Shown piece after piece: positions 1,121 to 52,462 of a stretch of 64,000 nucleotides of DNA. Source of the stretch: Eucommia ulmoides (Eukaryota; Streptophyta; Magnoliopsida; Garryales; Eucommiaceae); contig CM028328.1 in the NCBI GenBank assembly GCA_016647705.1, forward strand, positions 4,489,311 through 4,553,310. The letters run 5' to 3'. A program made the translations under genes and the position numbers. Within the stretch, counting starts at the first letter, position 1. Each line of letters starts with the position of its first letter. Under the pieces are notes generated by a model that saw only the letters and a list, made by a program, of their open reading frames with translations, ran no database searches and was not told the DNA's origin.

Positions 1121-3254
1121 GTGTGTGTGTCTATCTATCTATGTGTGTGTTGGTTTTATCCTACGTTAGATGTAGAAGGGGCTGGTGGTCAGGTTGGTTA
1201 TAAGTGTGAAGAAAATCTTCACCTCATGAGATGGTAGATGGTTTTTGGGGTTTAGAGAGACCCGAGACTACCTCAAACTGGTATCAGAGTTTAGATTAAA
1301 ATAACTTTGGTCTAATAGCTAAAAGGGAGAGACTAGTCAAGAGTTAGTCATGCGAAGGCTTGAGAGGGAGATTGTTGAGTTTATCTCACGTAGAAGGAGA
1401 TGATAGTTAGGTTAAAAATGTGAAGGAAAATTTCATTTCATGAGTTAACTTTTAGAATGAGTTAATTTTTGGGATTGAGAAAGGCCAAGACCACCCCACC
1501 CCACAGTGTGTGCGCTTGTGTATTGGTATATTTATGTGGTAGTGTCTGTTATGTGACTAGAAATTTGGGATTTTGCTTCTCTGAGTTGAGTGAGAGGGAT
1601 TTTTGGCGTCCATTTGTGTATAAAATTGCATATGTTAAGTGACTGAAACTCTCTCTCTCTCTCTCTCTCTCTTAGCGTTTGTTTTTTTTTTTTCTTTGGG
1701 GGGGGGAAGAGTTTTACTCTAAGGCGTGTCTGAGTCAACTTATGCGCACTTTGACTAATCACTTCATATGGCGATCTCAAAGGCACACTTCCCCACATCG
1801 ATTTGGTGCATTCGGGATTAAATTCAAAATTTAATTCCTGGAGAGCTCCTAAAGAGTCAAATCCTGAGTTTGTGTGACTGTTCATGTGCTTTTGTGTATA
1901 TGATTTGTATCTGTTAAATGGCTAAAATTTTGGATTCTGCTTCTCTCTCTCTCTCTGTGGTTGAAGTTGTTACTAAAATGGTGGTTTATGCTTGTGACTT
2001 GAAACAGTCGAATGATCTGTGGTATGGACCAGACAGAGTCAAGTACTTGGGACCCTTTTCAGCTCAGACTCCCTCCTACTTGACCGGAGAATTCCCCGGT
2101 GATTACGGTTGGGACACTGCCGGTTTATCCGCTGATCCCGAGGCCTTTGCCAGGAACAGGGCTCTTGAGGTAATTTCAACCTCCTACTTCCGACTCTAAC
2201 CAGTAAATTATTATTTGGTTTGCAATTTGAAAGCAGTTTTTGGGTTAATTCTAATATAGTTCTATGTTTGGAAAGATGTAATTATAGGTTGGCGTCCGTT
2301 TTGTGTTTTTGTTCTAAAAATTTGGGAACAAAACATAAACAATTTTTTCCTTTTTTTCTATATTTTTGTTTCTGTTCTAAGCTTTTTTAGAATAGAAACA
2401 GAAACTTAGGAAAAAAAACACTAAATGTCACCCAATAACCAAAAACGGAAGAATTTTGCAGTTACAAACTAAACAGACCGGTTTGAAACCTAAGCTGATC
2501 AAATTGACGAAATTTTTATCGTTTTGGAAAAATTATTATGTTATCCTTCAAATAAATTCACTTACCATTTTTTATTCATATTTTCTTTCTTTATTTTTTA
2601 ATCCCTCAAATAAGATTTTAGACTTTCAGTCAGGGATTGAACCAATGAAAGACTCGGGGAGCCTACGACCCCCTTATTTTTTTATTTATTTTTTACACTT
2701 ATATCTCCTATACTTACAATAAGAAATTTTTTTTTTGCTAACAGGTTATCCACGGGCGGTGGGCCATGCTCGGAGCTCTGGGCTGCATCACCCCAGAAGT
2801 CCTCGAAAAATGGGTCCGTGTCGACTTCAAAGAGCCAGTCTGGTTCAAAGCTGGAGCCCAAATCTTCTCCGAGGGAGGATTGGACTATTTGGGAAACCCT
2901 AACCTCGTCCATGCCCAAAGCATTCTCGCCGTCCTAGGTTTCCAAGTTGTCCTAATGGGCCTCGTGGAGGGATTTAGAATCAACGGTCTTCCCGGTGTAG
3001 GAGAAGGAAACAACCTCTATCCGGGCGGGCAATATTTTGACCCGTTGGGCTTGGCCGATGATCCGGTGACTTTTGCTGAGCTAAAGGTGAAGGAGATCAA
3101 GAATGGAAGACTAGCCATGTTTTCCATGTTTGGGTTCTTTGTTCAAGCCATTGTGACAGGGAAAGGGCCTTTAGAGAACTTGTTGGACCATTTGGATAAC
3201 CCTGTTGCTAATAACGCTTGGGTCTATGCCACTAAGTTTGTGCCTGGCTCTTAA
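958..3254 (+). CDS. LHCB3: Chlorophyll a/b-binding protein, LHCII type III
   Basis: Three exons (958-1083, 2008-2169, 2745-3254), all joined in phase 0 at GT-AG introns, encode 265 aa, the usual Lhcb3 length. Residues 1 to about 40 are a Ser/Thr-rich plastid transit peptide. The mature protein starts near [15 protein letters not shown], with the WYGPDR trimerisation motif at 47-52. It lacks the basic Thr-containing phosphorylation site of Lhcb1 and Lhcb2, which is diagnostic of type III. Helix B starts at E96-x4-R101, helix C spans about 152-172, and helix A carries the E213/R218 pair of the ExxNGR motif. The product binds chlorophyll in LHCII trimers attached to photosystem II in the thylakoid. 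An upstream in-frame GTG was not used as start because ATG at 958 matches the family. Intron 1 holds CT/TA/TG microsatellites and a repeat fragment; intron 2 holds a MITE. Confidence 0.96.
1087..1152 (+). repeat. Compound microsatellite (CT)n(TA)n(TG)n in Lhcb3 intron 1
   Basis: Directly after the exon 1 donor is a run of CT, then TA, then TG dinucleotides, then CTAT units. Further CT runs lie at 1647-1671 and 1942-1957 in the same intron. Confidence 0.9.
1155..1480 (+). repeat. Dispersed repeat fragment in Lhcb3 intron 1 (TRIM/LTR-like)
   Basis: The text around 1180-1235 (GGTTATAAGTGTGAAGA, then CACCTCATGAGATGG) matches the reverse complement of 13630-13680. A second half-copy follows from about 1372 (TTGAGTTTATCTCACGTAG). 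Similar text starting TTGAGTTTAT...CACATCGG flanks many plant TRIM and LTR remnants. No intact ends were found, so I treat it as a fossil fragment. Confidence 0.5.
2287..2436. mobile_element. MITE copy, GTGTTTxTGTTC family, Lhcb3 intron 2
   Basis: Left end GGTTGGCGTCCGTTTTGTG and the reverse complement of the right end (TTGGGTGACATTTAGTG) are imperfect inverted repeats. The interior carries the TGGGAACAAAA text seen in many other copies in this window. About 150 bp. Confidence 0.6.
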
Positions 3255-5497: not shown

Positions 5498-8400
5498 CTA
5501 GTGTCTCTTGCTTTTCTTCCCCCACCATCTTCGGAAACTTTTATCCACCTCTAAATGACCAAATTTCTTGAGTTTGGCCTTTGTTTCATGTAACCTAACC
5601 TTGTACTCTTTCTTCCAATCCTCAAACCTTTGTTTCAGCCTTCGAAATTCTTCGCCAGGATTTGAAAATGGCGATCGTCCCGATTTGGCATCGATAATGG
5701 CTTTGGCTTCCTCCTCAAAACTCTGTCTTTTTTGCTCGAATTCCTTAATCAAGTGGCTGAAAGTGGTCCTGCCTTGATTTTGTTGTCTTGTTCCGAGTTC
5801 AGGAACAGAATTAGTGACTTTTAAAGAAGTGTTCCCGTTTGGAGTTTGTGTTCCCATGGAACTGTTCCCGTCGGAATCATAGTATAATGGTGTTGGAGGA
5901 TCGGCTAACCTTTTGTTTTGTCCAGCTCCTCCATTGTTGCCTGCAGCAAGAGCTGCCTTTGCCGCAGCCAGGCTCATCTGCATTGATGATACAAATATAT
6001 ATAGTCTCGGTGTCATTGGTTCGTTAAGGCGGCGTTTGATACTAGTTTTTTAAGTACTTCCTAAAATAAAGAATAATAATAATTTGAAAAAAAAAAAGGT
6101 AATCTTAGAAAAAACAGAAAGTAAAAAAATCAAAATTATGTTGGATAATATAGAGATAATATCTTAGTATCGTCACTACAATTGATCTGATAATCCAAAA
6201 AGAAACATCGAAAAAAACAAAAATAACTCTTTTTTGCTTTTCAGAAAAAAATTACTTAAAATCATTTTTCTTATTAAAGTATTTTTTTTTAAGCGAAAAA
6301 TAAACGCTACTTTTAAAATTTAGTGCTTATTTTGCTTAAAAGCGAAAAAATACTTAAGAAAAGTGTTACCAAACGATGCCTAAATTTAAGATAAATTCGA
6401 ACAAAAACAGACAAAAGGGGAAAAAATGTGCTCTTCTTCTGTTCCCAAATTACTAGATCAAATTTATAGGAATCTAGGCCTCGTTTCTGTTTGATGTTTC
6501 CTTACCCTAGAAAGAAACTTGTTTCTGTTCTGTTCCATTTTTTTTTTTGGAACAAAATTTTGAGAAAATAACAGATTTGTTCCCAGATTTCTGCTTCTAT
6601 TCCAAGTTTTCAGGGAATAGAGAGAGTTATTTGGGAACAAAAACACTAAACAAACGCCACCCGGAGAGTTTTGTTCCAGTTCCTAGAAGAAAACTTGAAA
6701 CAGAAACAGATTTATAATACCAAACAAACACCACCTAAAATTTGGACAACTTGTACTAGATCAATCTGCCTATTTATCTCCAATTTTCTTGATTTTGCAC
6801 CATGATAAAATAAGAAAAATTCAAAAAAAAAAAAACTCACTTGCAAAGAAGTGATCTGGCTTTGCCAAATGTCCTCCATTGATCTGATCTTGGCCTCATG
6901 CTCCAGCCACCGTTCCTCAAATTGTTGGGCTTGCTCGCGCAACTCCCGATTTTCCTCTTCCTTATGCCTGATCGTCTCCTCTGCCTCCACAACACGCCTT
7001 TGAATCTCCTCAAAAGCCGATGATACAAGCTCAACATACTCCTCTGGTATACCCTGCACAATGGAAAAGAATTAAATGGGGTGTGTGTGTGTGTATAGGT
7101 ATATATATTAGAATATGAAAATTGGACAAATGCCAAAGAATCCGCCCCAAGCACTTAGGACCTGTTTGATTGTCCTTCAGATCGCGATTTGTACCATTTT
7201 TTAATCAAGCACCGTTTGGTAATAATGCTTTTATAAGAACTTTTTTGCTTAAAAAGCAAAAAAAATTACTTATTTTTAAAAGTAGCGTTTGTTTCACACT
7301 TAAAAAATTACTTCTGAAAATTTGAAAAAAAAAAAAAAAGTAAAAACATAATTTTTAAGTACCTTTTAAAAAAAAAAAGCAAAAAATAGTTATATATATA
7401 TACACGTGGGATATTGTCTTTCAGTATCTATTCGCTTACCAATAAACCATTGATGGAGATCGATGGATTAAGACATCTTCATCGACTTTTTTTTTTCTTC
7501 CCAATTTTATATGATCTTTTTCTGGTTAAGAGATCATTTACGAGGATAATACTAAATTATAATCTCTACACTATTAAACATACTTGTGAATTTTGTTTTT
7601 GCTTTACAGTAAAAGTACTTTTGTGTTAAATAACGTTTTTGCTTATAAAAACCCTAAACTAAGTTACCAAACAGTAATTTGTGATTTTTTTAATTCCTTA
7701 TAAAAACTAAACACACTCAAATTAGCTAACTAACCATTATGGTTCTAGTTTAACTGCTATGTTTTCTCGTCTACCTGGAATTAAATAGGGCTAAAAGTTT
7801 ACCTAAATTATGCTTAGATCGAGAGATGTGCCAATGAATTCGGCACTAATAAGATAAGTTAGACAAACCAAACAAATCTTTTCAGGCCTTTCCGTTTTGG
7901 GAACTTTGTTGTTCTTAGAATACATATACATACATATATAATATGTATTGGTTTATAACAATAGGACTAATGCTCAAGAATCAGCTCCAAGCACTTAGGA
8001 CCCGTTTGGTTGTCCTTCAAGTAGCGATTTTTACCATTTTTTACTTCAGTCAATTTATGAATCATAATATTTTTTTGTTTTGTTATAAAAAAAATAAAAG
8101 GGCGGTCTGGTACTACAAAACTCTGCTATGCGTAGAGTCCGGAGAAAAATCGAACCACTTGGGTCTATTGTGCGTAGTTATACCTTGCTTTGCAAGAGAC
8201 TATTTCCACAACTCAAACATGTGACCTCGACGTCACATAGCGACAACTTCTACTGTTGCGCCAAGGCTCCCTCATCCAAATTAGCAGACTAACCAAACGA
8301 GTCTTTAAGCTGAGTGAGAGAGAGAGAGAGAGGGGGGGGGGGAGGGATTTAATTCAAGTAATTATACCTTCACTTCTAAAATCGATGTGGTTGGCGTTCG

Positions 8401-10001
8401 CCCAAAATTTGTATCAACACTTAAATTTTTCATACTCTTCATATGACCGAAACGCCTTCGAGCAATCCTTCCACGAATTACTACAAAAATTTCAGACATG
8501 TTAGATTAGAAACCTTAAATCCCATTAACCTTAAATTTTGATTTGTCAAATGATTGACATGAACTTTACCAGATTGAAGATGAATAACTGCCTTTAGTAG
8601 TTTATCATCAGGTGTTCCATAAACACCCCGTTGCTTCGATTTTATCAACAAATCATAATACTCTCTTCTCCTATTTTCACCACGAATAACTGCAATAACA
8701 AGGTAATCTTAATGCGTTAGATCATGGCATTTGTTTAGTGTTTCTGTTCCTAAATTTGCATTTCTATTTCCTACAAAAAACTTGGAAGTTTGGACAAAAA
8801 CAGAAATTTGGGTATAATTCTGTTGGGTACCCTAGATTTGATTTTAAAATCTGGGAACAGAACAGAAAGAGTTTGTCTTTTTTTTTTCTTTCCCATATTT
8901 CTATTTTTGTTCCCATATTTTTGGAAACAAAAAAACAGAAACATCATGAAACCAGTGAAATTGATGAACCTTGAGATAAAAAAGGTAATTCTGAGATTAA
9001 AAGAAAAAAGTAATTTGGAACCGAACATTGTTTTTTTAAGTGTTTCTGTTCCCGGATTTATGTTTCTATAAATAGAAATTTGGCAACAATTCAGATCGGT
9101 TCATGAAAATTTGATCTAAAAATCTGGGAACATAGCATAGACAGACATTTTTTGTTCCCATATTTCTACTTTTGTTCCCAGAATTTTGGAAATAGAAACA
9201 ACAAACAGAAAAAAATTAAATTTTCATGAGATTAAAAAAGGAAATTTTGATTTCATCTTACATGATTGTAGAGTGATCACTCCAATCTTGAGTTCATTGA
9301 AGTATCGTCGATCCTGTTGACCACGGAATCGTTTCTGAATCTCAATTGCAACCTGTTGAATTTCTGTTCCCAAATCCTGAAAAATCATCCAAACAGAACT
9401 TTAAAAACAAAGGAAACAATTCACTTGAAACTGCAAATTGCTTCAAAATCTAAGCATGGTAATTATCAAATCAGACAACAGTTTTCTTCTAAGATCCCTA
9501 AAGCTAGAATTCATAGCAATTTCATATAAACCCTAATTCAATTTGTTCATAATCATCACCAAAATAGCCAATCAATCAAAGAGATGAACGAAAATTTCTT
9601 CTTCGTTTTACCTTTTTGATTAGATTAGGTACATTTGCATCGTCTTCTTCAGCTGATCTCTGATCTTCCATGGACGACAAAACGTACGGCGGTTCAGCAG
9701 ATTTAGCTTTTTTGAAAATTTCAGTTCCGAAACTATTACCTCTCGGATAGATTGATCGTTTAGCCTCTCTCGCTTCGCTGCTACATCTGTCGGAGCTCTC
9801 CGTTGCGTCGTTACCGACCTTGAAGTTCTTAGGCAACGACCGCTGCGCAGAAGGACGGCGAACCTTAGAGGTAGGACGAGGTCTGGACGGTAATGGCGGC
9901 GGCAAGTCCTTTGGCTTGTCGCCGTTGTCCATTCGCCGGAGATTCTCCAGCATTTCCTCCAGCGAGCTACGAATTACCGGAGCAGGCGAAACCGACAGCA
10001 T
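5498..10001 (-). CDS. Headless myosin VIII-like protein (neck and tail, no motor)
   Basis: Six exons on the minus strand (10001-9612, 9376-9262, 8689-8570, 8480-8368, 7053-6841, 5977-5498) splice at GT-AG sites into one uninterrupted frame of 476 aa. Residues 1-130 match the myosin VIII N-terminal extension (SSLEEMLENLRR, then PKDLPPPLPSRP). Residues 143-154, 166-177 and 206-218 are three IQ motifs (IQKRFRGQQDRR, LQSFIRGENRRR, LQSVIRGRIARRR), which bind calmodulin-like light chains. A coiled coil follows (about 255-330, through SMEDIWQSQITSLQ). The basic C-terminal tail ends in WWGKKSKRH, as in ATM1-type myosin VIII. The roughly 700-residue motor is absent, because N-terminal exon and first IQ exon are 235 bp apart. 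Full-length myosin VIII acts at plasmodesmata, endosomes and the cell plate. This form could only bind, dimerise or compete (inference). Start chosen at MLSVSP to match the family. Confidence 0.88.
6025..6382. mobile_element. MITE (GGCATCGTTTGGTAACAC family), myosin-tail intron
   Basis: Left end TAAGGCGGCGTTTGATACTA and right end GTGTTACCAAACGATGCCTA are imperfect inverted repeats, with AAGTACTT text inside both ends. It lies in the intron between the last two exons of the myosin-tail gene. Relatives lie at 21331-21499, 22300-22396 and 23419-23944. Confidence 0.65.
6474..6738. mobile_element. MITE copy with a second nested right end, same intron
   Basis: The left end TAGGCCTCGTTTCTGTTTGA pairs with AACACTAAACAAACGCCACC near 6645-6661. 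A second right-hand end (ACCAAACAAACACCACCTAA, 6720-6738) follows at once, suggesting one copy inserted beside or into another. Confidence 0.55.
8088..8277 (-). mobile_element. Au SINE (tRNA-derived SINE), minus strand
   Basis: Read on the minus strand it starts GGATGAGGGAGCCTTGGCGC, then has a promoter-A-like CGCAACAGTAGAAG and a promoter-B-like GAGGTCACATGTTTGAG. It continues through CTCTTGCA, CAATAGACCC and TCTCCGGAC, and ends in a T/A-rich tail. This is the order of parts of the Au SINE family, which is widespread in angiosperms. It sits in the intron between exons 4 and 5 of the myosin-tail gene, in sense with that gene. Many point differences from my memory of the consensus suggest an old copy. 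Confidence 0.85.
8725..9225. mobile_element. Overlapping MITE copies, GTTCCCATATTTCT family
   Basis: Two or three partial copies lie end to end in the intron between myosin-tail exons 2 and 3. The phrases TTTAGTGTTTCTGTTCC, TGGGAACAGAACAGAAAGAG and TTGTTCCCATATTTCTA recur (about 8738, 8840-8910, 9030-9060, 9150-9180). Exact borders cannot be set by eye. Confidence 0.5.
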
Positions 10002-10369
10002 CTTCAAACTGATAAAAATTTCAGTCACGAATCACAATTTTTGAACCTGAATCATACATAAAAACCAGGCGATCAATTCAAACCTAGCGTGATTTGAAGC
10101 TTGAGTTTAGTGATTGAACGAGAACCGGCGGGATAAGGCTAAATTTCTGAGATAGGAATTTCCCGAATCGTGTTTGATGATGAAAACCAGAAATTCATGG
10201 AAACAAACTTCAGGAGTAAATGGGGAAGTATGAGCTGTCAAAGAAATTCAAATTTGGGAAAACGACAATAATTTTGGGGCGAATTTGTTGCGCAAAACGT
10301 TGAGAGAATTGCTATTTTTCGCTACCGTCGAGGGTTTCTCCCAAATGAAAGCTCAATTCACAATACCGG

Positions 10370-10740
10370 ATTAAGAACAAGCAAGAGAGAGAGAGAGAAT
10401 CAATGGCGGAGATTGAAGAAAAACAAGCTTTCGAAAAAGTAGAGAGAGAAACTCGATTTCCGATATGAGATTAAGAACAAATCAGAGAGACAGACAGAGA
10501 TGGTAGTAATTTAGTGGCGGAAATTGAAGAAAAACAAGCTTCTGAAAAAGGAGAGAGAGATAGAGATGGAATTAATGGCGGAAATCGCAGGAAACCAAGC
10601 TTTTGAAAAAGAAATAGAGAGAGAGATAGAGACAGATATTCAATTAACAATTATGTGATTAAGAGCAAACCAGAGAGAGAGAGAGAGGATTAATGGCGGA
10701 AATTGACGGAAAAACAAGCTTTTGAAAAAGCTGAATTTTG
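10370..10740 (+). repeat. Four-copy degenerate repeat upstream of the myosin-tail gene
   Basis: A unit of about 38 bases, ATGGCGGAAATTGAAGAAAA followed by CAAGCTTTTGAAAAAG, occurs at 10403, 10514, 10575 and 10693. The copies are separated by GA-rich spacers (AGAGAGAGAGA). They lie 400-700 bases upstream of the myosin-tail start codon, so in its leader or promoter. I see no ORF linking the units. Confidence 0.85.
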
Positions 10741-37235: not shown

Positions 37236-40200
37236 TATCACGGGCCGAGCCTTTTGAGGTTAGAAAGTGGACCGTGCGGCGCTAACTAGGGGATCGCCTA
37301 GTAGCAAGCCTGAAGATCAGAGGTTCTTAAATAGTGGAAGCGGTTTCAATAGCAACGAGTTTCCCTACAACAACACATGCCAACAATGTAGAGAAGAATA
37401 CAATTACAATAACAACAATTGTATTAATATCAAAGGTTACAAGGTGTGAAACAATGATTTAAAAACCGGACCGGACCGGTTGAACCGTCGACCGGTCGAC
37501 TTTGCGGTCCGGAAATAGTCTAAAAACCGCTCAAGTGGTCAAGCCGTTCAATCGGACGGTTCAACGCGGTTCAACCGAGAACCGGCGAACCGGTCTGGTT
37601 TTTATCGAACCGGTCGTATTTTTTGATTCCTCATTTCTGTAACTACTTCCTCCCAAAAAAAACTTAAAAATAGTTGCCTTCTTCTCGCCAAACTTCACTG
37701 GGCACGATGATCACGATCGACAGCCGGACATCCCTTGTAAGTTGTATCGTCGTCATTAGGTCTTCAGGTTCAGGCTTGAATTAGGGAAAGAGAGTGTACC
37801 TGTGGAGCACGCAGTGGAATTGGGAGCGGCGCTGATACAATGGGGAGGGTTTGGTTGTATATTAGGGCTATTATCTTTGACTTAGATAATGGCCTTTGAA
37901 TCAAAAGTGATCCAACGGTAGACTAATTATATATATTGGGAGGGCATATCCTTATCCCATTCTCAAGCCCGCTGTAGCCTTGGAATTATCACCATCCTTA
38001 TAAATATCTTTTAATTTAGTAGACTAATTATATATATTGGGAGGACATATTAATTATTAGGTTATATAAATATATTATGTATCTTTTAATATTAACTGAA
38101 AGGGATATTAATTTATATATATATATTGTATATTTTAATATTTTTATTTAAATAAATATATATATAAAAATATTAATGGCGTAATTATGACGTCACCGGT
38201 TCAACCGCGGTTCGCCTACCGGTTGAACCAGTGACCCGTGACCCAGTGACTTTTTCGGTTCGACGTCCGGTCCGGTTTTAAAAACATTGGTGTGAAAGGC
38301 TTGAATGACTTCAAGAGCATGTCCTCCCACATAGTACTTTAAGTAAAAAAATACAAGTGACCACAATAGACATCATTATGCTCTAGGAGTCATAATGGTG
38401 TCTTTCTACAAGAAATGAAAGAACTTAACTAAACTAAGCTAATCTAAGCTAAACTAGTCTAGAAAACAAATGAAAAGGGTCATAGACAAGCAGTCATGTG
38501 CGAGAACAAGCACTGAACAAGCTAAGCCGTGACATTCTCTCCCACTTGAGCTGTTGACGTCCTCGTAGACTTCTTCTGATAATGCTTCTGATTTGGTCTG
38601 CGGTTGTAACGTCTTCTGCTGTCTTCCAGATATGTTGATTTTGTAGAGCTTATCCACTGAATGAGGATACAGTGGCTGGTCTGCGACAATCTCACTATAT
38701 CCCAAGTTGACATCAAAGCACTTGTGTAGATTGAAGCACGAATCAATATCTCTCGGAACATTCCACAACTGAGTATCATGCTTGAGAACCTGTGCGGCAG
38801 TGTCCTTGGAATATTGGAATTGAAGTGCTGGATATAAGGTTGTAAAACTCAATACTTTATCCACCACTACAACTATTGTACTTTTGTTCCCCGAATTTTC
38901 GACCCTCGGCACACAAAGTCGGTACTTCCGTCTTTCTGGATGTAGTCCCACTGAAAGCAAGTGGGTCTTTGCACTGTTGGCTAACATCAAAGCGGATTGG
39001 CCCAATGGAAACTTGATATCTGTAGATTTTTCCCTATCCGGATGAGGGGGAAACTTCTCTGGAATTTTTCTTGGAGAATCAATTCGAACATAGTCAAACA
39101 ACCCTTTTGCTGGAATCAAAGGTGGCACTTGTGGGTTAGTTTCTCCCCCACTAAGCACTAGAAGGTCGTCTTGATATTCCTCCATCTCAAGTTGCAGAGC
39201 CGAAACGGATTTGTCTTCAATTGAATATTGCGTTGTAGGAATGACACACGATTGATCTCCCATCATACAAAGCGAATCTGCAAAAGGCATTGAGACCGCC
39301 TTATGTGGCATTGAGACCGCCTTAGTGTCCATAAAGAATTCCATCCCCAATATCACTTGAAAATCATCTACAGGAGCAATGGTGAAGTTGAGGAACCCAT
39401 CCCACGGAGCAATCTTCATGTGTACCGTGTTGGCGACTCCAATCACGGGACACGCTTCAGAATTCACGGCCTTAACTCTGAGTTCTTTTCAACACGTAAG
39501 CCCAACCGATTAGCTTCCTTATCGGACATAAAATTGTGTGTAGCACCAGTGTCAACTAAAGCAGGAGAATTCCGCCCATTAATTCGAAGGTCCATGAACA
39601 TGAGGTTCTTCTTCATGACCTTCTTCTTCGCGACCGGCTGTTGCTTCATGGCATTCAACAAACGAATTGTACCCATTTGATTAGCATTAGACTCGTCTGA
39701 AGTTTCCTCCTTCTGCTCTACAATATATTTTCCCCGACGTTCCTTTTCTTCCTGAATCGATGCTTGCAGCGCGGACAAAGCATGTTTATGTGGACAATAG
39801 GATACATCATGATTCTTGTTGCACAAGACGTAAGAAGTTAGATTTTTATGGGCCTGTCTGCCCTAGTGAGGCTTCTGGTTTGCCGGATCCAGTGATGCCC
39901 CTGAGTTTTTGAACGAATGGCCAGATTTTGAGTGCTGGCCTCGGCACGGACTCCTTGAATTAGAATTTGAGTTGGAGTTGCTCCAACGTCTTGGTGGGCT
40001 TCCTTGAGATGATTGACCTCCACTTCCATCATAATGGGAGACATTCTTGTCTTTCCTCTTGTCATGGTTAGTGGTAGGTTCAGGAGAGTAATCAGTTACT
40101 CTTTCTGCAGCAGCAATGGCAGTAGATAAATTAGCAGGACGTTGTCTTTGTATTTCTTGACGTATCCAATCTTTCAAGCCATCTAGGAACCAAAACAACT

Positions 40201-41374
40201 TATCCTCTTGAGACATTGTACAAATGTCCAGTATGAGAGCCATAAACTTCTTGACATAATCTCGGACGTGTCCAGTCTGTTTTAGCTCTCTCAGTCGTCG
40301 TCGAGCCGTGTACTCGACATTTTCTGGAAGGAATTATACCTTAAGTTCACCTTTAAGGTCTTCCCAGGTATTGATAGTGCAGCTTCCCTCCAGGATGTCT
40401 GCATATTTGGTTCGCCACCATAATTTAGCATCACCACAAAGATACATGGAAGCTGTTGTCACCTTTTCTTCCTCGGAGGTTACTCCGGTGCCCCAAAAGT
40501 ATTGCTCCACATCAAAGAGGAAGTTTTCAAGCTCCTTGGCGTCTCTTGAACCACCATAGGATTGAGGTTCGGGAAGGTGAACCCTCGAAGTAGGTTGCCT
40601 GGAGTCTCTAGCAAGAGCTTGGTACACAATGTTCTTCAAGTCGTCCAACTCACTTCGGAGATCATGGACTGACTGTTCTATCTGAGCATGATGGCCAGCG
40701 GATGTCGCGGCAACTAGGCCCTTCTGTTCGATCAGGTGATCGATTTGGGGATTCTGAGATGTCCCCTCCCCATTAGCATCGGGGCTTTGCAAAAGAGTTA
40801 AAGCAACGTCAATGCGGGAAACGCTTTGTTCAAGCACGTCGAGACGATCTTTCGTCGACATGGTATTTCACCAACGTGGTCAGGCAACGGATCGGTCCGT
40901 TGCTCTGATACCAACTGTCACGGGCCGAGCCTTTTGAGGCTAGAAAGTGGACCGTGCGGCGCTAACTAGGGGATCGCCTAGTAGCAAGCCTGAAGATCAG
41001 AGGATCTTAAATAGTGGAAGCGGTTTCAATAGTAACGAGTTTCCCTACAACAACACATGCCGGCAATGTAGAGAAGAATACAATTACAATAACAAAAACA
41101 ATTGTATTAATATCAAAGGTTACAAGGTGTGAAAGGCTTGAATGACTTCAAGAGCATGTCCTCCCACATAGTACTTTAAATAAAAAAAAATACAAGTGAC
41201 CACAACAGACATCATTATACTCGAGGAGTCATAATGGTGTCTTTCTACAAGAAATGAAAGAAATAAACTAAACTAAGCTAATCTAAGCTAAATTAGTCTA
41301 GAAAACAAATGAAAAGGGTCACGGACAAGCGGTCATGTGCGAGAACAAGCACTAGACAAGTTAAGACCATGACA
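37236..41374 (-). mobile_element. TR-GAG-like non-autonomous LTR element (Gypsy-type gag), fossil
   Basis: The two LTRs are 37236-38534 (about 453 bp after removing a nested MITE) and 40916-41374 (459 bp). Both LTRs start TGTCACGGG (TATCACGGG at the left) and end TGACA on the + strand. A perfect CTAGG duplication flanks the element (37231-37235 and 41375-41379). Next to the right LTR is a primer-binding site for initiator Met tRNA (minus strand TGGTATCAGAGC). Next to the left LTR is a purine tract (AGTGGGAGAGAA). The 2.4 kb interior encodes only a gag-like region (about 39.9-40.9 kb) and an aspartic-protease-like region with a DTGA motif (about 39.5-39.8 kb). No reverse transcriptase or integrase is present. 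The reading frame is broken in about three places. LTRs differ at roughly 4-5% of sites by eye, so it is a fairly recent insertion. Confidence 0.85.
37452..38289. mobile_element. hAT-like MITE (838 bp) nested in the left LTR
   Basis: Termini CAATGATTTAAAAACCGGAC and reverse-complement CAATGTTTTTAAAACCGGAC are inverted repeats. An 8-bp duplication GTGTGAAA flanks it (37444-37451 and 38290-38297), and the right LTR keeps the single empty site. An 8-bp target duplication points to the hAT superfamily. The subterminal regions are rich in GGTTCAACCG/ACCGGTTGAACC. The interior repeats TAGACTAATTATATATATTG twice. No transposase. Confidence 0.85.
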
Positions 41375-50428: not shown

Positions 50429-52462
50429 ATGGCTGAGCCTGGACCTAGTGATCCGTCATTGTTATATTTGCAGAGTCAGCATAGGTCTTCATTAATATGG
50501 ACTACACCGGTAATATTTAGTCCTATTATATATATATTTTTTTAGTTTCTATTTTTTAAAATTTTATATTATTTATCGTGTCCGAATTTATATTTCAGGA
50601 TATTCGCTCACTTGATTGTGTCCGAGGGGATCCAGGGGACTGGAGGTCAAATGTACCCGGCCGAGTTGTACAGTTGATACAATCGGCCGGTTTGTATGGT
50701 GTTTTTAGGTTACATATGAAGCGGTTAGATCACGCTCTAATCACAGCGTTAGTGGAGAGATGGCGACAGGAGACCCATACATTCCATCTACCAACTGGGG
50801 AGATGACAGTGACGCTGCAGGATGTCGCTGTGCTATTCGGGCTGCCCGTGAACGGGCGAGCGGTTATCGGCCTTGAGGACACGCGATCAATATTTAGTTG
50901 GCAAGCATTGTGCCATGAGCTCCTAGGCCAGACACCGCCAGAGTCGGCAATCAAGTCCGCCGGGCTGAAGCTCACTTGGTTACGCACGACCTTCGCTGTA
51001 GTTCCTAACAACGCTGATGAGCAGGTTATGCAGTATTATGCACGCGCGTATTGTCTGTTGTTAATTGGCACAATGTTGCTAGTGGACAAATCGCAGAACG
51101 CCGTGAAGCTAGTGTACCTACCACTACTTCGCGACCTAACAGGTTCCGATCCATATAGTTGGGGTAGTGCCACACTGGCAATCCTTTATCGGGAGCTCTG
51201 CAAGGCTTCACAGAGAGAGACACGGGATATAGCCGGTCCGTTGTTTCTACTGCAGTTTTGGGCCTGGGAGCGACTCCCAAGTCTTCGTCGAATGTGCGTC
51301 CCTACCACTGACGATGTTTTCGGCACACTGCAGATCGGGGACTTCAGGTTTCCAGGTGCCCCTAGGGGGTGCAGGTAAATTATTAGTTGTATTTTATTTT
51401 ATTTTATTTTATTTTTTTTCATGTTTGAGATATACAAATATCTATTTTCACTTGTTTATACTTTCGGTGTATAGATGGAACGTTAAATTTATTATGGATA
51501 GTGTGCCCACGCACGTTTTGGTTGTTTATCGAGATCAGTTAGATCGTTTGCGGGATGATGAGGTCAGTTAGTTATTTATGCCAAAAATTTTGTATATTTA
51601 TTTATTTAATTATTTATTTTTTTGACAGGTCATTTGGATGCCCTATCCAGCTAATGTTCTGGCGGATTTGCCTGAGTACTGTAGAGATGGGCAGGACATA
51701 TGGATGGCATTGGTGCCTCTCATTTGCTATGAAATCGTAGAATATCACTATCCTGAGCGCGTGCTACGACAGTTTGGGTATAGACAAGGGATTCCACAAC
51801 ATTGTGACACGGGTAGAGCGTTGCATAAGATCACTCGGAGGGGAAAATTCGGTGCAGATTGGACTGAGGAGCACGCGTTGCATATCCAAATGTGGAATAG
51901 ACGACGACCAGCGGATTTGAGCGACGTCCAGGTTGGACTAGGGGTGGACGACCAGTATATGCCCTGGTATCGACAAGTCACTCGAAGGTTTGTAGTGAAC
52001 CCATCTTATCGACCTCAGTTCGGCTACCTTGCTACAGGACAAAGACCGACGTTGCAGGTACGTAATTTTCATTAAATGTATGCTACTTTGTAATACTATT
52101 AATGTTTATTTATTTACTTAACAATCTCGTGTGTTTTGAAGGACGATGATATATCGCATATGTTACGCCAAGTTGAGTACGCTTTGCGGTCGAAAGACCA
52201 TGCTGTTCGGGATGAGGTTTTGCGTGAGGTTCGGGACACATGTTCGCGGGCGTTGTACCTTCATTCACAGTTCGAGATGCCAACTCATGTTTCTCCATCT
52301 CCTCAGCGCATTCCAGATCCAATTGTCGAGGCAGATCCACCTCAGTTCGACCCAGAGCCAGGGGTTGCCCTACATGAGGACACTGATAGGTTAATCAAAA
52401 ACCCCAAAATCAAAACCATTACAAAAATCGATTCAAATAGCAAGCGGGTTAAGAAAGAATAA
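50429..52462 (+). CDS. Plant mobile domain (PMD) protein, MULE-associated
   Basis: Five exons (50429-50509, 50599-51374, 51475-51562, 51629-52057, 52142-52462) join at GT-AG sites into 564 aa without a stop. The start is MAEPGPSDPSLLYLQSQHRS. The PMD covers most of the chain. It has RVVQLIQSAGLYGVFRL, then ALVERWRQETHTFHLPTGEM, TVTLQDVAVLFGLPVNGR, then YARAYCLLLIGTMLLVDKS, LFLLQFWAWERLP, and later VIWMPYPANVLADLPEYC. This pattern is that of MAIN/MAIL1-like proteins and of copies carried by MULEs and other plant elements. Host members act in the nucleus in gene expression and silencing of transposons. The role of transposon-borne copies is unknown. A donor-like GATAG/GTTAAT at 52390 could splice to a different C-terminus. 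The gene is intact, although the adjacent transposase is wrecked. Confidence 0.85.

Follow-up and report, generated by a model that had tools for sequence, protein, structure and literature searches.

A motor-less gene of the class VIII subtype-B myosin lineage in Eucommia ulmoides, with relatives that suggest repeated loss of the motor in plants

Introduction

The headless myosins of plants described in the available passages of a survey of 67 plant genomes (PMC3850447) are of two types, both of class XI. Myo11E2, an XI-K derivative in Arabidopsis, and Myo11E4 of the Poales each lost the motor after duplication, and both have transcript support. Here we describe a headless gene of class VIII, found on the minus strand of a 64,000-nucleotide (64-kb) stretch of the Eucommia ulmoides genome (assembly GCA_016647705.1, contig CM028328.1, positions 4,489,311 to 4,553,310), hereafter the window. 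The Eucommia gene shares the absence of the motor with both class XI types but differs from them in its tail: theirs are class XI tails, and the DIL domain of such tails was absent from the headless product, in which IQ was the only Pfam family above cut-off. Myo11E2 differs further in that its IQ neck is missing as well. Myo11E4 keeps three IQs and carries its own N-terminal extension of 40 amino acids (aa).

Other motor-free plant myosins are transcripts or constructs. As described in the passages available, a short headless transcript of maize O1 (class XI) likewise specifies a conceptual headless plant myosin, but it comes from a full-length class XI locus and not from a separate gene, and its protein was undetected (PMC3935558). 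Artificial ATM1 IQ-tail proteins likewise combine a class VIII neck and tail with no motor (PMC2275265, PMC8750215); unlike the Eucommia gene they are laboratory-made, with the head and apparently the N-terminal extension omitted, and ATM1 is grouped with VIIIA, not with ATM2/VIIIB (PMC2275265). At the Eucommia locus the gene is its own, its motor exons are gone and its frame is kept. No description of a natural headless class VIII myosin was found in the open-access literature, mostly titles, abstract openings and passages, in agreement with the initial annotation of this DNA. One cotton survey, in its available passages, counts only proteins with both Myosin_head and IQ (PMC7397272), and headless genes escape listing wherever Myosin_head is required in this way.

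Results

The headless gene consists of six exons on the minus strand (10001-5498), and all five introns have GT-AG borders. The spliced frame is 1431 nt long, encodes 476 aa plus a stop and contains zero internal stops. A first protein search with the product returned 22 proteins, of which the top match was Ilex paraguariensis P0001 (499 aa, 51% identity, 100% query coverage). The exon borders were backed by this protein: its tblastn pieces stop near the borders of the Eucommia exons. The exons, the first intron and the N-terminal motif are as follows.

9612-10001, minus strand: exon 1, 390 nt; class VIII subtype-B-like N-terminal extension, aa 1-130
9879-9899, minus strand: PPLPSRP, a PxLPxRP motif at aa 35-41 (coordinates computed by hand from the exon map)
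9377-9611, minus strand: intron 1, 235 bp, phase 0, GT-AG; occupies the expected place of the motor exons
9262-9376, minus strand: exon 2, 115 nt; first IQ motif IQKRFRGQQDR, start of the second IQ
8570-8689, minus strand: exon 3, 120 nt; remainder of the second IQ, LQSFIRGENRR, start of the third IQ
8368-8480, minus strand: exon 4, 113 nt; remainder of the third IQ, LQSVIRGRIAR
6841-7053, minus strand: exon 5, 213 nt; coiled coil
5498-5977, minus strand: exon 6, 480 nt; tail, basic C-terminus and stop; 56% identity to Ilex P0001 (tblastn, E=1.3e-44)

The introns measure, in order, 235, 572, 89, 1314 and 863 bp, and have a guanine-plus-cytosine content of 27-32%, against 35-51% in the exons. 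One intron interrupts the second IQ motif and another the third, both at the identical motif position, and the tail is interrupted by the 863-bp intron at 5978-6840. In alignments, the join follows the lysines with which exon 1 of full-length proteins ends and is close to where the post-motor region begins; at the start of exon 2 the Eucommia gene is about 5 residues shorter than Ilex. Both sides of the exon 1/exon 2 join are in phase 0.

The motor is absent from the window. When the motor parts of two motor-bearing proteins, P0005 (Glycine) and P0014 (Persea), were compared with the 64-kb window by tblastn, the best match reached only E=0.53; the same proteins matched at the IQ, coiled-coil and tail exons. 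On these searches a concealed motor was ruled out both for intron 1 and for the remainder of the window; the window contains no ambiguous bases (N). A Pfam scan of the headless product gave IQ (E=1.8e-9) as the sole family above cut-off; Myosin_head (PF00063) was absent at that threshold. Judged from its sequence, the product is a myosin by descent and not a motor. The initial annotation thus stood in its exon map (six GT-AG exons, the 476-aa frame, the 235-bp gap and the coordinates), in placing the N-terminal exon, three IQ motifs, coiled coil and tail in one frame free of stops, and in excluding a motor between exon 1 and the IQ exon. It had also proposed a deletion between two phase-0 introns: the phase-0/phase-0 join is there to be seen, and the deletion itself is an event that we infer from it.

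The product has a computed mass of 54.7 kDa and an isoelectric point of 9.7. A pattern search placed its three IQ motifs at aa 143, 166 and 206, and the last 45 residues carry a net charge of +11. In exon 1, aa 1-106 align by BLAST with residues 1-121 of the full-length Macadamia protein P0043, and a short SLExxL stretch is retained along with the PxLPxRP motif. PxLPxRP was present in 27/30 headless rows of the tree described below, in 31/31 full-length subtype-B proteins with an N-terminus and in 0/12 of subtype A; its use as a subtype-B mark derives from this comparison and not from a published definition. The motif fits what we take to be the class II SH3-ligand pattern. A WH2-like N-terminal helix was also considered and set aside: WH2 was unmatched in the Pfam scan of the headless product and among the 25 of 76 families listed for its relatives, a listing that includes all 18 families of the first member. 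In its available passages, the 2013 survey describes the myosin VIII N-terminal extension as not characterised in detail (PMC3850447).

A search of solved structures with the headless product yielded nothing beyond weak matches to coiled coils and a single myosin Va chain (E=0.27). An AlphaFold2 model was built for the Ilex relative, not for the Eucommia product itself. It shows a weakly supported short helix (13-23), disorder, an IQ helix (143-255), a coiled-coil helix (273-355) and two C-terminal helices. The coiled-coil stretch, counterpart of exon 5, is a long helix with a predicted local distance difference test (pLDDT) score of about 79-94.

Proteins of like shape were found in many other plants. 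A profile search returned 35 proteins and a tail search 1023 matches, of which the best 120 were examined. Among the matches listed, the motor-bearing relatives from the tail search carried class VIII names or domains and aligned with the tail of the headless gene. Twenty-nine headless database proteins were placed in a tree with the Eucommia gene; their sources include Ilex, Apium, Camellia (two types), Salvia, Paulownia, Bertholletia, Actinidia, Rhododendron and Diospyros, as well as Musa, Ensete, Dioscorea and Typha. Compared by BLAST with full-length P0043, nearly all complete headless rows matched within residues 1-168 (often just the first 50 to 126) and resumed at about 854-890, skipping the motor. 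The exceptions were P0001, whose second piece starts at 798 and crosses a gapped stretch, and P0020 and P0021, in which the IQ region is shorter. IQ was detected by Pfam in 19/19 headless relatives scanned, and Myosin_head was not among the 25 of 76 families listed for them.

For eight of the headless relatives in the tree (P0002, P0008, P0013, P0020, P0021, P0026, P0029 and P0030), the contig is about 1.4-2.1 kb long and contains the entire frame; these contigs are read as probable spliced transcripts. Musa acuminata, M. troglodytarum and Typha angustifolia have headless and full-length proteins on contigs of different size, suggesting that these are probably separate genes and not splice forms of one gene. 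The two apparent headless types of Camellia sinensis, P0004 and P0023, fell on different branches of the tree.

The tree was built from the shared parts of 30 headless and 46 motor-bearing rows (518 columns, unrooted). The motor-bearing rows were hand-picked for spread from the protein and tail searches, three of them without an N-terminus; P0011, P0018, P0019, P0033, P0034, P0035, P0036 and P0071 were left out as short or incomplete headless-like proteins. Subtype labels A and B were assigned from the N-termini together with what we take to be the identities of ATM1 and ATM2. The 12 subtype-A rows formed their own set (100/100), with zero headless rows among them. A set of 17 rows (100/100) contained the Eucommia row and 8 motor-bearing B rows, and a set of nine rows (98/89) grouped it with Ilex, Apium, Escallonia and Salvia. 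By this grouping of tail and N-terminus, the headless gene descends from the class VIII subtype-B lineage.

Comparison with full-length subtype B (ATM2-like, 'myosin-2') showed the same N-terminal extension with RSSLEEML and PPxLPxRP, the same IQ neck and coiled coil, a basic tail ending in W(W) and a shared placement in the tail tree; the headless gene differs in having no motor and in its tail intron (6840-5978). In the available passages of the 2013 survey, the remainder of the tail of subtype B lies within one exon (PMC3850447). The headless gene does not conform to this, its tail being split by the intron, and it is therefore filed as a derivative of the B lineage and not as a standard B member.

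The headless label required 7 changes on the tree, 6 of them forced by starred branches (bootstrap range 6-7), and 4 changes were left once eight long or unsure rows were removed. A single headless clade was rejected, at a cost of 501 log units (approximately unbiased (AU) test, p=4.8e-12). In 30/30 headless rows the best motor-bearing match was better than the best headless match from another group, a rough check only, since many of these best matches are Tetracentron P0044, which is partial and without an N-terminus. Because regain of a lost motor is unlikely, three losses appear well supported on this tree: in the asterid group of the Eucommia gene, in an Ericales group with Paulownia, and in Musaceae. 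Dioscorea, Typha and P0008 may represent further losses, and six or more in total are possible. Within the asterid group, a motor-bearing Escallonia row was nested among the headless rows in the free tree (90/79), and a clade of the nine headless asterid rows apart from Escallonia was not rejected (AU p=0.060); one motor loss in this group or several would both be compatible with the data. The occurrence of such relatives in distantly related plants suggests that one kind of myosin has repeatedly become a motor-free protein. The headless state is not particular to the Eucommia genome: like proteins in Ilex, Apium, Camellia, Salvia and others indicate that the loss is probably old in the lineage, and the tree points to recurrence elsewhere.

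To assess constraint on the open frame, drift was simulated without selection, using point changes only and starting from the gene's own frame. Mean stop counts in the simulated frames were 10.1 at 65% identity, 11.9 at 59% and 13.2 at 53%, with 0/300 runs stop-free at each level; the actual frame, which is 51-55% identical to Ilex depending on the method, contains no stop. The larger share of change lies on the Eucommia side of the Eucommia-Ilex path, with end branches of 0.77 for Eucommia and 0.28 for Ilex. Columns in which three near full-length relatives agree were then graded by their conservation in other subtype-B proteins. The headless gene kept the residue in 82/96 conserved, 45/78 intermediate and 32/62 variable columns (p=8e-6, conserved vs variable). 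By region, the conserved columns kept were 17/19 in the first 50 residues, 4/6 in the linker, 16/19 in the IQ region, 22/27 in the coiled coil and 23/25 in the tail. On the evidence of its frame and its conserved sites, the locus is probably a real protein-coding gene.

Other features of the window were as follows.

10349-10729, minus strand: imperfect direct repeats, four 67-nt and three 50-nt copies, containing CT-rich stretches; possible leader or promoter region
2766-3254, plus strand: exon of a chlorophyll a/b-binding protein gene (PF00504), beside the headless gene
39464-39826, minus strand: open reading frame (ORF) of a retrotransposon-type aspartyl protease (PF13975)
50578-52075, plus strand: plant mobile domain in two nearby ORFs (PF10536, profile positions 1-192 and 243-347)

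The direct repeats precede the start codon of the headless gene by about 0.35-0.73 kb. A stretch of intron 4 at about 8085-8270 (minus strand, ends placed by eye) resembles what we presume to be an Au-type short interspersed nuclear element, and the window contains a 30-base piece of this stretch only once. The ORFs at 38454-39467 and 40334-40861, neighbours of the aspartyl protease ORF, had no Pfam match, and an Rfam scan of the 64-kb window gave no match.

Discussion

We consider it moderately probable that this motor-less gene of the subtype-B lineage encodes a motor-free, calmodulin-binding scaffold at the cortex and, in addition, a competitor or partner of full-length myosin VIII. Loss of the motor exons would have come about through a deletion from one phase-0 intron to another. 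The product would dimerise through its coiled coil, bind calmodulin or light chains through its three IQ motifs, be placed by its tail at plasma-membrane, endosome or plasmodesmal sites, and recruit an SH3-domain protein through the N-terminal PxLPxRP. From there it may act as a scaffold at the cortex and compete or pair with the full-length protein.

The role of scaffold or competitor is one that the product may have by analogy with known proteins. The initial annotation had proposed possible competition for light chains or cargo; the retained N-terminal motif points to an additional role as a scaffold. In the passages available, the artificial ATM1 IQ-tail, which has no head, labelled plasma-membrane spots, endosomes and pit fields (PMC2275265), and it colocalised with remorin 6.6 and altered microtubule behaviour (PMC8750215). 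ATM2 is linked to endocytosis (PMC3807578), and SH3P2 reportedly figures in cell-plate assembly and has been investigated in clathrin-mediated endocytosis, again in text available in part.

Several observations weigh against this interpretation. At 0.77 changes per column, against a median of 0.22, the Eucommia end branch is long, suggesting that constraint on the gene is relaxed or changed, and the gene is known here from genome sequence alone. Its relatives are gene models or contigs, and some of them could reflect alternative splicing or faulty annotation; Apium P0003 carries the name isoform X2. The Camellia P0004 motif is missing its R, and the first and third IQ regions of P0020 and P0021 are unclear. 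Beyond IQ, zero families exceeded the Pfam cut-offs in the headless product, and partner binding is predicted from motifs. The AlphaFold2 model of the Ilex relative consists of elongated helices of low overall confidence (mean pLDDT 60.2, predicted template modelling score 0.21). Transgenics carrying the artificial IQ-tail showed, in the passages available, no significant phenotype, with detectable expression in one seedling only (PMC2275265).

The product could instead be a pure competitive inhibitor, which occupies cargo, membrane sites or light chains and damps full-length myosin VIII without serving as a scaffold itself. Artificial headless ATM1, for which a dominant-negative effect was expected, inhibited movement of ARA6-labelled organelles (PMC2275265, available passages), and the IQ motifs, coiled coil and tail are all retained. 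Such an inhibitor has no obvious need of the N-terminal exon, yet the first 50 residues of the Eucommia product retain 17/19 highly conserved columns and PxLPxRP persists in 27/30 headless rows; we regard pure inhibition as possible but unlikely.

A different history can be imagined whichever role applies: a single headless paralogue arose before monocots and eudicots split and was later overwritten by gene conversion from full-length copies. One event would simply explain why almost every row has its join at roughly the same position. The rejection of the one-clade tree (p=4.8e-12), the 7 label changes with 6 forced by starred branches (4 after dropping 8 rows) and the two Camellia sinensis proteins from different branches make this history improbable.

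The long end branch, and a record in Eucommia that consists of genome sequence, would also suit a decaying pseudogene still open by chance. Free drift would have left about 10-13 stops where there are zero stops or frameshifts, changes avoid the conserved sites, and every splice site is intact; on the drift simulation and conserved-site retention we rejected this explanation as very improbable. Although the locus is known from a single assembly, a collapse or misassembly that took out the motor exons is scarcely credible given an N-free window, an ordinary 235-bp GT-AG first intron and like architecture in records of other species.

A broader proposal goes further than the favoured interpretation of a motor-free scaffold of the subtype-B lineage, and we find the case for and against it evenly balanced: that myosin VIIIB holds an autonomous motor-free module, made up of a conserved SH3-ligand-like peptide at the N-terminus together with IQ, coiled coil and basic tail, which has been freed many times in flowering plants to give a convergent class of calcium-regulated cortical scaffolds, invisible to motor-based surveys. 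A deletion from phase 0 to phase 0 would leave a usable adaptor, so the same change could recur. If headless class VIII myosins have indeed arisen recurrently, they would be a natural counterpart of the laboratory dominant-negative tail constructs, and the N-terminal extension of myosin VIII would work without the motor. The headless gene makes the role of this extension and of the tail directly testable.

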